This document shows, piece after piece, positions 10,204 to 42,681 of a DNA stretch of 46,686 bases (position 1 is its first letter; the number at the start of each line of letters is the position of its first letter). The notes beneath the pieces were generated by a model, which saw only the letters and a list, made by a program, of their open reading frames with translations, was not told the DNA's origin and did no database searches. A program made the translations under genes and the position numbers. Source of the DNA: Rhodospirillaceae bacterium MC! (lineage in GTDB: Bacteria > Pseudomonadota > Alphaproteobacteria > MC1); NCBI GenBank assembly GCA_002632265.1, contig NQOV01000004.1, positions 1 to 46,686 of the forward strand. The letters are read 5' to 3'.

Positions 10204-11559
10204 CTATTCTGTTTCTGTTTTTACGTGTGCCATAACTTTCTTTTTCTCGTATGAGTTAATAGCAAGCATGATTCCGCTTAAGATCACCGCACAAGCCAAG
10301 ATAAAAGCCCCAAGCTCGAGATAAGAATAAGCCCAACCTTGCGTTTTAAACATTGCACCTTCTACAACATTCGCAAAACTGCTCCCAAAATTAGAAATGA
10401 ACGCATATCCCACCAAGAAAACAGTACTCGCAATCTTTTTGTTAAATGACATATTAACATAAGTCATGATCACAAGAGCTGGGAAAGTATTAACAAAAAC
10501 CAGTAATTGATTACCGAAAATACTAACAACAAGACTAGGTATATAATGACCATCTGCCATATGTGTGTGCATAACCCCTGCAAACCCCAAGACGATAAAA
10601 CATAAAGTGTAACAACAAGCGATTAATATTAAAGATCTACTAGGATTTAGTTTTTTAATCACTCCTGAAGATCGTGTTATTAATACGATCACAATAAGAT
10701 GTACAGGAATACTAATTATACTAAAAAATCTTAAACCAAATGATTGCATATTATCGGGCCAAAAATATAAATTATAACGCCCTAATTGTGAAAATTGGGT
10801 TTGAGCGGCCACTAAAATGGTAATAGAAAAGAATGCTATTACTATAAAGCGTGGGTTCGTTATGGCATATTTTAAATCGGACATTTTTACCTTTTGTTTA
10901 GATGTGGTTTTTGTATCTAAAGTATTAAATGGTTTTACTTTTAAACTAAATAATACGACAATCATCCCAACAGCGGAAAGACTCGCCACATAAAAGCCCC
11001 ATATTGGGCTAACTGTATACATAAAGTTCATAAAAATGTCCATTATGAACCAACCTGTAATACTAGCACTTCCGATTTTATCTTCTGTACCGCCATGGGC
11101 TACGATATAACGTCCACAATAACCATATACGGCCGCACTACCTGCGATAACCACATAACCAAAGTAGATACCACCTAGCCAACCAGCCATATAAAATAAG
11201 GTGGGATTGTGTGTCATTAACAATGGTTGATATACGAACTGAAAGAATGGACCAGAGGCCACACCAAATATGGCTATACTTAAAACAACCCAAATACGTA
11301 ATTGAGTTTTATCTAGCAACCAACCAAATAATGGCTTATAGAAAACCGCTATAATGGTTTTCATTCCTAGAAGTTCCCCTATTTCCAGAGCGTCCAAATG
11401 CACTTGTTTATCCAGCCATATGGCAAACACTCGAGAGGCTAACACCGCAAATACACAAGTATGCGTAAACATAATTAGCCAAACTTTTATACTTGCGACT
11501 CTTGGAGAATCTATTATCCCTTTTGCTTGTAGGGATTCTATACTATCATAATCACTCAT
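10204..11559 (-). CDS. MFS permease, oligosaccharide:H+ symporter (LacY-like)
   Basis: A 451-residue, 12-helix inner-membrane transporter. Several stretches resemble LacY: KPLFGWLLDKTQLRIWVV (the loop 2-3 motif, compare PLFGLLSDKLGLRKYLLW), GPFFQFVYQPLL, and GGIYFGYVVIAGSAAVYGYC in helices 4-5. This suggests proton-coupled uptake of a sugar or glycoside, not an assigned one. I start at ATG 11559 (MSDYDSIESL) because AAGGAATAA precedes it; the frame runs 32 codons further upstream without family resemblance. With the FAD-oxidoreductase gene 99 bases downstream, it forms a likely uptake-and-oxidation pair. Confidence 0.8.
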   Translation of the reverse strand: MSDYDSIESLQAKGIIDSPRVASIKVWLIMFTHTCVFAVLASRVFAIWLDKQVHLDALEIGELLGMKTIIAVFYKPLFGWLLDKTQLRIWVVLSIAIFGVASGPFFQFVYQPLLMTHNPTLFYMAGWLGGIYFGYVVIAGSAAVYGYCGRYIVAHGGTEDKIGSASITGWFIMDIFMNFMYTVSPIWGFYVASLSAVGMIVVLFSLKVKPFNTLDTKTTSKQKVKMSDLKYAITNPRFIVIAFFSITILVAAQTQFSQLGRYNLYFWPDNMQSFGLRFFSIISIPVHLIVIVLITRSSGVIKKLNPSRSLILIACCYTLCFIVLGFAGVMHTHMADGHYIPSLVVSIFGNQLLVFVNTFPALVIMTYVNMSFNKKIASTVFLVGYAFISNFGSSFANVVEGAMFKTQGWAYSYLELGAFILACAVILSGIMLAINSYEKKKVMAHVKTETE

Positions 11560-11659
11560 GAATTTATTCCTTTTTTTAATTTTCTTTGTGACTCTATAAA
11601 TATAATATTTTAGTATTATTATAATAAAGAATCTTTGTTTATTTTTAATATGCAAATAA

Positions 11660-39354: not shown

Positions 39355-39363
39355 GTGATATCC

Positions 39364-40110: not shown

Positions 40111-40165
40111 AAAAAATACCCCATATTTATATTAACTAATAATAAAAACATGGGGATATTTTATT
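40111..40165. terminator. Bidirectional terminator between dsbA-like gene and EIIB gene 1
   Basis: AAATACCCCAT (about 40114-40124) pairs with ATGGGGATATTT (about 40150-40160), with A and T runs on both sides, between two convergent genes. Confidence 0.7.
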
Positions 40166-40200: not shown

Positions 40201-40719
40201 TTAAGCAATACTACGCATTTCATCGGCGATACTTGTAACTTTAAGACCGATTACCACGTGTAATTCCTTATCAGATTTATGAACAACGCCTTTATTATCT
40301 AGTTTTTCAAGGTCTGATTCGTTAACTTTAGACATATCTTTAATTGTTAAGCGTAAGCGTGTGATACAGTTATCGATTTTCTCAAGGTTTTCAGCTCCGC
40401 CCAAGGCTTGAATATATTCTTTTGCGGTTTTGTTGTAATCTTCGGAATTTTTTGCAACTGTAGTAAGTGCACCGTCTCCCTTTAGATTGTGCATTTCATC
40501 GGCGATACACACAACATTCGCTCCAATAATAAGGTGGAATTTATTTTGTCCCACATATACTGTACCTTTACTTCCAAGTGCGATAATTTTATCATCATCC
40601 ACTTTTGTCATATCAACCATTTCTAAACGTAAACGTGTGATACAATTATCAATTGTTTTAATATTATCCAATCCGCCCAACGCTTCTACATAATCTTTTG
40701 CAAGTTCAAAATAACCCAT
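40201..40719 (-). CDS. Tandem PTS EIIB-domain protein, paralogue 1
   Basis: 172 residues made of two EIIB domains of the glucose family (about 4-77 and 97-172). Both carry IDNCITRLRL with the phosphorylatable cysteine (Cys26 and Cys118), as in EIIB of glucose and N-acetylglucosamine permeases. There is no EIIC or EIIA part, no membrane segment and no signal peptide. The two domains are joined by a short acidic linker (GDGALTTVAKNSEDYN). All copies have a histidine where EIIB usually has Gln in QVIFG (His62 in KFHLIIG, His154 in ELHVVIG). It could relay phosphate from HPr/EIIA or sense PTS flux. It is monocistronic with a strong promoter and GGAGAG before the ATG. Its partner proteins are unknown. 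Confidence 0.85.
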   Translation of the reverse strand: MGYFELAKDYVEALGGLDNIKTIDNCITRLRLEMVDMTKVDDDKIIALGSKGTVYVGQNKFHLIIGANVVCIADEMHNLKGDGALTTVAKNSEDYNKTAKEYIQALGGAENLEKIDNCITRLRLTIKDMSKVNESDLEKLDNKGVVHKSDKELHVVIGLKVTSIADEMRSIA

Positions 40720-40786
40720 TTGGTTCTCTCCATAATTTATTCATTTAGATTCATTAATTAATCAGATTAATTAACAACTAACAATT

Positions 40787-40814
40787 ATTATACATATATA
40801 TAATATCTTGTCAA
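40787..40814 (-). promoter_or_regulatory. Strong promoter of EIIB gene 1
   Basis: Minus strand: perfect TTGACA (40814-40809), 16-base spacer, perfect TATAAT (40792-40787). The leader is about 60 bases. Confidence 0.8.
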
Positions 40815-41027
40815 CATTTTTCAACATCTTTCCGTATTTTTATGGATTCTTGCAAGGAAAAAATCTTAAACAAACAGTGTTTATTTTATGTGATGAATGT
40901 TAAGGAGTATTTATTATTTACGAATGATATTTTTTATTAATCAAACACATAGAATATATCTTAACTAAATCTTAAGATCTTTAAAAAAAATTGTGGTTTT
41001 TCATAACTTTAAATATATAAAAAACCA

Positions 41028-41056
41028 TTGACAAATTAAGGTATTTTGTGTATAAT
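41028..41056 (+). promoter_or_regulatory. Consensus promoter of EIIB gene 2 with a long leader
   Basis: Perfect TTGACA (41028-41033), 17-base spacer and perfect TATAAT (41051-41056). The start near 41063 leaves about 205 untranslated bases before ATG 41269. AACGTT occurs at about 41065 and 41177. Confidence 0.85.
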
Positions 41057-41268
41057 GAACTATAACGTTAATTACTGGTGTTTTTATATTGTAAGACAAA
41101 AATAATAAAACTATTCATACTATAAAATTGTAATTTTCTATATATTTCATATGGTTAATACATACATCAAAAAATAACGTTTAAATAAGCACTATTATTT
41201 AATTACAGCTAATTAGATAATATACTTAAATAAATTCAACTAACAAATAAAATTTAGGAGATAACCAA

Positions 41269-41796
41269 ATGAGTTATATAGAATTAACAAAAAATTATAT
41301 TAAAGCATTGGGTGGATTAGATAATATCAAAACAATCGATAATTGTATTACCCGCCTACGTTTAGAAGTAAACCAAATGAGTAAAATAAATGAAGATAAA
41401 GTCATAGAACTTGGAGCTAAAGGTATTATATATGTGGGTCATAATAAATTTCATCTTATAATCGGCACACATGTTTCATGTATTGCCGACGAATTACACA
41501 CTATGAAAAAAGACGGCTTTATCGGTACAATTGAAGACGGTGCGAGCGAATGCGATGAAACCGCAATGCAATACATCCAAGCTTTAGGCGGAGTAAGAAA
41601 CATTGAAAGAGTTGATAATTGTATCACTCGTTTACGCTTAAAAGTACACAATATGGAAAACGTAAACGAGGACGAACTTTCAAAATTACACAACCGAGGA
41701 ATTATTCATAAATCACTTCATGATTTACACATTATAATCGGTCTAAATGTTACCAGTATCGCCGACTCAATGCGTAACATTCATAAATATTCTTAA
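41269..41796 (+). CDS. Tandem PTS EIIB-domain protein, paralogue 2
   Basis: 175 residues with the same two-domain plan as the neighbour at 40201: Cys26 and Cys118 in IDNCITRLRL and VDNCITRLRL, His62 in KFHLIIG and His154 in DLHIIIG. First domains of the three paralogues resemble each other more than they resemble the second domains, so the internal duplication came before the gene triplication. The interdomain linker (DGFIGTIEDGASECD) differs. The gene is divergent from paralogue 1 and convergent with paralogue 3. TAGGAGATAACCAA precedes the ATG. Functions considered are soluble phosphocarrier, PTS-linked regulator or decoy; no transporter domain is present. Confidence 0.85.
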   Translation: MSYIELTKNYIKALGGLDNIKTIDNCITRLRLEVNQMSKINEDKVIELGAKGIIYVGHNKFHLIIGTHVSCIADELHTMKKDGFIGTIEDGASECDETAMQYIQALGGVRNIERVDNCITRLRLKVHNMENVNEDELSKLHNRGIIHKSLHDLHIIIGLNVTSIADSMRNIHKYS

Positions 41797-41859
41797 GTTC
41801 TAAAGGATAGAATCTATCAAAGATAGAATCTAAAGGCTAGAATTTAAAGGCTAAAATCT

Positions 41860-41910
41860 AAAGGATGTGAGAAAGCACTCATATTATTTGAGCGATTTCT
41901 CACATCCTTT
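41860..41910 (+). terminator. Terminator of EIIB gene 2
   Basis: A perfect 15-bp stem (AAAGGATGTGAGAAA with its complement, 41860-41874 and 41896-41910). It is preceded by short repeats of TAGAATCTAAAGG. It resembles in form, but not in loop, the long stop-adjacent hairpins. Confidence 0.8.
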
Positions 41911-41960
41911 ATATTACATACTTTATACTTACAATTATCCCCATAAATAAAAAATACAAA

Positions 41961-42002
41961 AAAATAGTAGATATATAAAATTACATCTACTATTTTTTTT
42001 AT
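41961..42002. terminator. Bidirectional terminator between EIIB genes 2 and 3
   Basis: AAAATAGTAGAT (41961-41972) pairs perfectly with ATCTACTATTTT (41985-41996), followed by a run of Ts on the plus strand and preceded by As, which act as Ts for the minus-strand gene. Confidence 0.8.
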
Positions 42003-42050
42003 ACTTATGTATAATAACTTTAAGCTTAGCTTAGCTTAGTTTAGCTTATT

Positions 42051-42578
42051 TTAAGCATTTTCATAAAGCTGACGCATTGAGGCAGCAATACTGGTAACAT
42101 TCAGACCGATTATAATGTGTAAATCCGTATTAGATGTATGAATTACACCTTTATTATCTAGATTTGACAAAGCGTCTTCATTTACCTTATTCATATCCTT
42201 AAGATTTATACGTAAACGAGTGATACAATTATCAATTCTATTAATATTGCCAACTCCGCCTAGTACTTGAATATATTGAGTAGCGATTTGCTTATAATCA
42301 TCGGCTTTATCTGATGTTTTAGTAACCACATCATCCCCTTTGAGCTTGTGCATTTCGTCAGCAATGCCTACAACTTGTGCACCTATAATAAGGTGAAACT
42401 TATTCTTACCAACGTAAATTGTTCCCATACTACCGATTTCTATAATTCTATCTTCGTTAACTTTATCCATATTAACTATTTCTAAACGTAAACGTGTAAT
42501 ACAATTATCGATTGTTTTGATATTATCTAATCCGCCCAAGGCTTCAACATACTGCTTTGCAACTTCTTTATGACCCAT
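42051..42578 (-). CDS. Tandem PTS EIIB-domain protein, paralogue 3
   Basis: 175 residues, two EIIB domains, with Cys26 and Cys118 (both in IDNCITRLR) and His62/His154 conserved. It differs from paralogue 1 mainly in the linker (VVTKTSDKADDYKQ) and in losing the second cysteine of the first domain (VVGIADEM against VVCIADEM). TAGGAGATGGC precedes the ATG. It has its own near-consensus promoter at 42652-42681. The presence of three copies within 2.4 kb, all free of EIIC, implies expansion under selection rather than transporter decay. Confidence 0.85.
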   Translation of the reverse strand: MGHKEVAKQYVEALGGLDNIKTIDNCITRLRLEIVNMDKVNEDRIIEIGSMGTIYVGKNKFHLIIGAQVVGIADEMHKLKGDDVVTKTSDKADDYKQIATQYIQVLGGVGNINRIDNCITRLRINLKDMNKVNEDALSNLDNKGVIHTSNTDLHIIIGLNVTSIAASMRQLYENA

Positions 42579-42651: not shown

Positions 42652-42681
42652 ATTATACACACATATTTATATAAATGTCAA
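42652..42681 (-). promoter_or_regulatory. Strong promoter of EIIB gene 3
   Basis: Minus strand: perfect TTGACA (42681-42676), 18-base spacer and perfect TATAAT (42657-42652), leader about 65 bases. Confidence 0.8.

Follow-up and report, generated by a model that had tools for sequence, protein, structure and literature searches.

We analysed a 46,686-nucleotide (nt) stretch of DNA (hereafter the window; contig NQOV01000004.1 of Rhodospirillaceae bacterium MC!, assembly GCA_002632265.1) which carries three paralogous genes for small proteins made up of two EIIB domains of the phosphoenolpyruvate (PEP):sugar phosphotransferase system (PTS). Gene A (172 residues; 40201-40719, minus strand), gene B (175 residues; 41269-41796, plus strand) and gene C (175 residues; 42051-42578, minus strand), here called the triad, keep the phosphorylatable cysteine in all six domains while lacking two residues that are almost invariant in EIIBs coupled to an EIIC permease domain. 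We propose, with a probability of about 0.5, that the triad represents the soluble end of a permease-free PTS branch which would be fed by EIIA and would act as phosphoryl store and phosphorylation-gated docking protein. Most of what is understood about PTS regulation concerns EIIA, HPr and EIIB bound to a permease. A free EIIB protein that has two phosphorylatable cysteines but lacks a permease would lengthen the relay by one step past EIIA. New here, with respect to the literature and genomes sampled, is a stand-alone tandem EIIB in three copies alongside full PTS enzymes.

Results and discussion

An earlier note on this DNA, made from the sequence alone, had described the three proteins as consisting solely of two glucose-family EIIB domains each, with DNCITRLR intact throughout and no EIIC nearby. 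All of this was borne out. PF00367 matches each protein twice (111.4, 96.2 and 95.4 bits per protein), all six domains pass its cut-off of 27 bits, and a Pfam scan of the three proteins returned nothing beyond EIIB over Pfam's cut-off. In gene A, domain 1 spans approximately residues 5-77 and domain 2 residues 96-168. The DNCITRLR motif with its cysteine can be read in six of six domains, and the codons of the predicted phosphorylation sites lie at 40642-40644 (gene A, minus strand), 41344-41346 (gene B, plus strand) and 42501-42503 (gene C, minus strand) for Cys26 of domain 1, and at 40366-40368, 41620-41622 and 42225-42227, respectively, for Cys118 of domain 2. PTS_EIIC matches are absent from the window's contig. 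AlphaFold2 predicted two EIIB folds with a low-confidence linker in between (mean predicted local distance difference test score 87.7), and with a predicted template modelling score of 0.53 the relative domain orientation is not fixed by the model. The best Foldseek matches in the PDB include the E. coli IIB-Glc structures 1o2f, 3bp3 and 3bp8 (36-38% identity). Judged by the model, the triad has the EIIB fold.

The internal duplication that gave rise to the tandem appears to be older than the triplication, as the earlier note had argued from domain-wise similarity. First domains are 70-79% and second domains 62-68% identical among themselves, as against 44-49% between first and second domains. 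A tree built from 91 EIIB domains unites the second domains of the triad in one group (support 100/96) and groups the first domains with weaker support. Identities and tree therefore place the internal duplication first. Pairwise ratios of nonsynonymous to synonymous substitution rates (dN/dS) between copies are 0.20-0.27 (domain 1: 0.09-0.20; domain 2: 0.27-0.31), with dS near 1 and hence near saturation. By this measure, the triad open reading frames (ORFs) are under purifying constraint.

We then turned to the PTS genes of the genome (2.05 Mb, 19 contigs, 95.5% complete), where EI, HPr, EIIA and EIIC were sought as the earlier note had suggested. The phosphorelay enzymes that characterize a permease-free regulatory PTS (HPr-EI, HPr, EIIA) are complete. 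EI is present in one copy fused to HPr (L019, 3568-6051); the first ca. 160 residues of this protein match no Pfam family and by eye resemble a decayed EIIA. A second HPr is part of a permease of presumed mannitol type, a label that we take from a mannitol-dehydrogenase-like neighbouring ORF. Three EIIA-Glc domains were found, namely that of a NagE-like permease, a stand-alone protein of 171 residues on contig 19 (L018, 4834-5349) and the C-terminal domain of a 457-residue protein. The EIIC search covered the PF02378 family and returned two ORFs only, each with its own EIIB domain: the NagE-like EIICBA (816 residues; L020, 6570-9020), whose EIIB carries DNCITRLR and which has its own EIIA, and the mannitol-type EIICBA-HPr (733 residues; L009), which has an EIIB of a different type and likewise its own EIIA. 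The stand-alone EIIA is also without an obvious permease. The earlier note had named an EIIC lacking its EIIB, or a genome devoid of phosphotransfer enzymes, as speaking against its reading; the enzymes are present, and the 95.5% complete genome yielded no EIIC of the glucose family (PF02378) that lacks an EIIB. By the same search, the triad has no EIIC partner, whether fused, adjacent or orphan.

The 457-residue protein (contig 7; L017, 5571-6944, minus strand) combines cysteine-less tandem EIIB-like domains with an intact-looking, E. coli-like EIIA. Two of the EIIB-like domains are supported (hhalign E-values 1.2e-6 and 6.4e-10) and a third is doubtful (0.089). The protein aligns with gene A over both domains (26% identity, E-value 2e-10) and is, by sequence, a distant paralogue of the triad, which ties tandem EIIBs to EIIA without EIIC. 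Its gene is located near a cluster that by eye is formate-dehydrogenase-like.

To compare residues, we assembled an EIIB sample picked by similarity to the triad. The reference set of 60 EIIC-fused or EIIC-adjacent domains comprised 50 single-EIIB frames, the genome's own NagE, six EIIC-adjacent stand-alone EIIBs and three more fused frames; in all 50 single-EIIB frames, EIIC presence was assigned by a custom model built partly from the same frames. These coupled EIIBs show Lys or Arg at one position in 59 of 60 cases and Gln at another, again in 59 of 60. In E. coli IIB-Glc, the first Lys in GLKKLG corresponds to the basic position and the Gln in VQAIFG to the other; this Gln is presumably Gln456, described as close to Cys421. 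In the triad, both residues are gone from all six domains, Ile, Glu or Ser having replaced the basic residue and His the Gln, so that the pair, defined in this analysis as a mark of sugar-transporting EII complexes, occurs in 0/6 domains. The codons of the replacing His62 lie at 40534-40536 (gene A, minus strand), 41452-41454 (gene B, plus strand) and 42393-42395 (gene C, minus strand), and those of His154 in domain 2 at 40258-40260, 41728-41730 and 42117-42119, respectively. As read from these alignments, the signature is clear for the triad. Two findings support the view that the triad probably serves no transporter: in the 95.5% complete genome, every glucose-family EIIC found has its own EIIB, and both residues are lost in six of six domains.

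The main rival explanation holds that the triad proteins are EIIBs acting in trans on the EIIC of NagE, or on an EIIC encoded in a genome region missing from the assembly, and thereby raise uptake capacity. It is in agreement with the best NCBIfam profile for the triad, the N-acetylglucosamine (GlcNAc) IIBC permease TIGR01998 (158.6 bits, under a cut-off of 553.2 that is set for the whole permease), with a genome that is 95.5% complete, with six single stand-alone EIIBs that adjoin an EIIC elsewhere, and with split EIIC and EIIB that reportedly stay active, as cited in the available text of PMC6148471. However, the basic residue and Gln are kept in 6/6 of these EIIC-adjacent stand-alone EIIBs but not in the triad. 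NagE's own EIIB has DNCITRLR, Lys and Gln, and the triad lies outside the separate nagE locus. We consider a role in trans unlikely.

Freed EIIBs exist elsewhere as single domains. Among the loci examined were 12 orphan single EIIBs with no EIIC within the fetched stretch of up to ca. 10 kb on each side, and they retain the basic residue in 6/12 and Gln in 9/12 cases (naive Fisher p, coupled vs orphan: 4e-5 and 0.013, respectively). At most, these counts hint that the signature extends to orphan EIIBs generally. Five of the 12, from five genomes of the same phylum, neighbour galactan genes, homologues of what we take to be arabinogalactan endo-galactosidase and beta-galactosidase, and three adjoin genes for a tripartite ATP-independent periplasmic (TRAP) transporter (DctM/DctP; L139, L141, L144 (L159-L161)). 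Like the triad, these orphans stand alone without an EIIC in the fetched stretches; unlike it, they are single-domain proteins tied to other uptake genes. In the galactan-linked orphan loci (L140, L142, L143, L145, L146 and L162-L166), three have His for Gln and none has an EIIC in the fetched stretches. Two of the three TRAP-linked EIIBs have an aldo-keto reductase gene as neighbour.

Tandem EIIBs occur elsewhere in EIIC-fused form, in 16 frames from several groups including other alphaproteobacteria among the loci examined. These EIIC-B-B permeases (Thalassotalea, several alphaproteobacteria) resemble the triad in their tandem arrangement and in an extra copy that often has His for Gln (second-copy column: His 7, Gln 3, gap 6). 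They differ in being fused to EIIC, and in 11 of the 16 the second copy has lost its Cys. All eight fused proteins with one His copy retain Gln in the other.

Outside the triad's genome, a profile of the three proteins detected no stand-alone tandem EIIB in the genomes sampled, which were 385 of the class, 398 of the phylum, 398 of the phylum of the Blautia-locus genome, 30 reached via named loci and 41 including the triad's own, the sets overlapping and the result for both 398-genome sets applying among the matches listed, full-length matches first. A transfer-messenger RNA of alphaproteobacterial type (RF01849) and FlaF, likewise alphaproteobacterial, assign the triad's genome to Alphaproteobacteria; the 40 relatives compared belong to the same class at closest. 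Ten short frames (L070, L071, L150, L158, L171-L176) were inspected as candidate stand-alone tandems and rejected, each having at most one EIIB domain. The literature searched contained neither the phrase 'two EIIB domains' nor any three-copy family of tandem EIIBs that stand alone in a genome with full PTS enzymes. The earlier note, which had recommended looking for orthologues and knew of no described system of this form, was right as far as the stand-alone tandem is concerned, in the literature and in the genomes sampled. Single orphan EIIBs and EIIC-fused tandem EIIBs do exist, however: orphan EIIBs as such are already known (MG_129), and the genomes sampled yielded both single orphans and, frequently, fused tandems. 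A phage or defence origin was also considered and rejected: PHROGs gave no match, the PADLOC match was at chance level (E-value 0.008) and viral contigs held no relative. By tblastn, 33 phage records matched, with less than 60% identity among the best 20 of the 33. Plasmid records matched in 307 cases; among the best 30 of these, the rows that carry a name are ordinary permeases, to which the two query domains align at a single place.

With regard to known systems, the triad shares fold, DNCITRLR loop and Cys with the EIIB of glucose-family permeases (PF00367, TIGR00826; E. coli PtsG IIB), but differs from it in having two domains per protein and in lacking EIIC, the basic residue and Gln. The nearest counterparts in the literature searched are MG_129 and the Brucella PTS. 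The available text of PMC13047044 describes MG_129 of Mycoplasma genitalium (MPN_268 being the other Mycoplasma name given) as an orphan EIIB of the PTS and a predicted FtsY binder, based on prediction and one crosslink. Orphan status is common to MG_129 and the triad; MG_129, however, is by its description one EIIB protein, while the triad comprises three tandem copies in a genome with a full set of PTS enzymes. Brucella possesses a functioning PTS chain without permease, for which the available text of PMC2937029 names EI-Ntr, NPr, EIIA-Ntr and EIIA-Man. This is likewise a phosphorelay without permease, but in contrast to the relay proposed here it ends at EIIA, with no EIIB among the four proteins named there.

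Each triad gene is preceded by a mismatch-free promoter: TTGACA-N16-TATAAT upstream of gene A (40787-40814, minus strand), TTGACA-N17-TATAAT upstream of gene B (41028-41056, plus strand; leader of ca. 200 nt) and TTGACA-N18-TATAAT upstream of gene C (42652-42681, minus strand). The window holds four such N16-18 promoters compared with 0.06 expected from shuffles, and three of the four precede genes A, B and C. Genome-wide, we counted 36 perfect sigma-70 consensus promoters (17 + 19), and none for the backwards-read pattern. This suggests independent, probably strong transcription of each triad gene. Perfect promoters also precede genes for transfer-messenger RNA (RF01849), flagellin, FlaF, glyA, metK, luxS, peroxiredoxin, CheW, MarR/GntR/DeoR regulators and major facilitator superfamily transporters (20 downstream proteins scanned with Pfam). 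Because this gene set is mixed, a perfect promoter alone is no proof of high abundance.

Based on these findings, we favour the reading introduced at the outset, a soluble PTS branch ending in the triad. PEP would phosphorylate the HPr-EI fusion protein, HPr would hand the phosphoryl group to a glucose-family EIIA, likeliest the stand-alone one on contig 19 or else that of NagE or of the contig-7 fusion protein, and EIIA would phosphorylate both cysteines of each tandem EIIB. According to the available text of PMC6148471, EIIAs and EIIBs of the Glc family that are not cognate partners cross-talk in B. subtilis; the permease-free chain of Brucella speaks in favour of the proposal as well. Without an EIIC, the phosphoryl group would not be spent on sugar, so the tandem EIIBs would hold it and track the EIIA~P pool, which would fall as GlcNAc enters via NagE. 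The triad may then be both a store and a docking protein, gated by phosphorylation, for a target protein. This would be comparable to E. coli EIIB-Glc, which binds the repressor Mlc only if unphosphorylated; the Foldseek match 3bp8 is the EIIB-Glc/Mlc complex. A role in capacity or graded response would fit the two sites on each protein and the three copies with separate expression. The cysteine-less tandem EIIB-EIIA protein might be a competitor for the partners of the triad. Phosphorylation by EIIA without onward sugar transfer is favoured by the complete upstream relay, the constrained cysteines and the absence of an EIIB-less EIIC among those found.

Several observations count against this proposal. 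No partner, operon mate or regulator was found that links the triad to a target. An Mlc-like repressor partner was considered and rejected: a ROK protein of the Mlc/NagC type with a helix-turn-helix (HTH) was not found in the genome, and both ROK matches are kinase-like and, with 289 and 320 residues, too short for a leading HTH. The triad genes show unremarkable codon usage (fractions of C-ending codons 0.34, 0.40 and 0.22 compared with a background median of 0.33 in 69 ORFs), and a high abundance of the triad therefore lacks independent support; codon usage was dropped as a sign of high expression because it is uninformative. When sequences are clustered at 60% identity, the contrast shrinks, with the basic residue kept in 4/7 and Gln in 6/7 orphan clusters, compared with 27/27 and 26/27 coupled clusters. 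Further, it is from general background that the Gln would have a part in sugar transfer, and the literature searched yielded nothing usable on this residue.

As a second rival, the triad proteins could be moonlighting docking proteins whose role is now independent of phosphorylation. MG_129, predicted to bind FtsY, offers a precedent (prediction and one crosslink; available text of PMC13047044), and the cysteine-less paralogue indicates that a tandem EIIB can persist in this genome without cysteines. Against this, the triad keeps all six cysteines within the whole DNCITRLR loop, so phosphorylation is probably still selected, and we regard the moonlighting explanation as quite improbable. Finally, that the triad is a functionless relic of a lost EIIC-B-B permease is very improbable in view of three intact copies, the low dN/dS (0.20-0.27) and three perfect promoters, even though fused tandems occur in other alphaproteobacteria; the EIIB tree (73 columns), poorly resolved, does not join triad domains to fused-tandem domains.

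Beyond the triad itself, it is possible, if tentative, that glucose-type EIIBs have repeatedly been freed from permeases and form an output class coupling PTS flux to non-PTS processes such as galactan and TRAP uptake. Loss of the basic residue and a Gln-to-His exchange would be its marks, the triad its most elaborate case and the cysteine-less EIIB-EIIA protein a competitor or reader. The residue losses would then provide a simple sequence rule for spotting other non-transport EIIBs, as beside galactan and TRAP genes.

Additional observations

The triad is flanked by a DsbA-like gene on one side and a class I lysyl-tRNA synthetase gene on the other. Three inverted repeats, the first below read from the sequence by eye and the other two from a repeat search (I7 and I10), are possible terminators, although a terminator scan reported none of them. 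A CCCCAT...ATGGGG repeat (40119-40155) lies between the convergent ends of the gene at 39355 and gene A, a 40-nt repeat (41845-41925) directly beyond gene B, and an A/T-flanked repeat (41958-41999), possibly a two-way terminator, in the gap where genes B and C converge. An RNA element in the gene B leader was considered and rejected, as an Rfam search of the leader gave no match and the folding z-score was just -2.6.

In E. coli, LacY ranks among the classical targets of EIIA-Glc. LacY-family symporter genes are present in the window (10204-11655) and at L106 (both by Pfam) and L107 (by sequence similarity), a possible place for PTS control. Among the genes with a perfect promoter is luxS (L113, 440-952); to our knowledge, LuxS is unusual in Alphaproteobacteria. 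Contig 11 (L098, L102, L103) encodes several secreted-looking ankyrin-repeat paralogues, each with a perfect promoter and with spacers alike (Pfam scan of L098 only). A small secreted-looking protein at L020 (3800-4384) contains many tandem acidic/basic repeats of the DDDDEDVDKKKK type.

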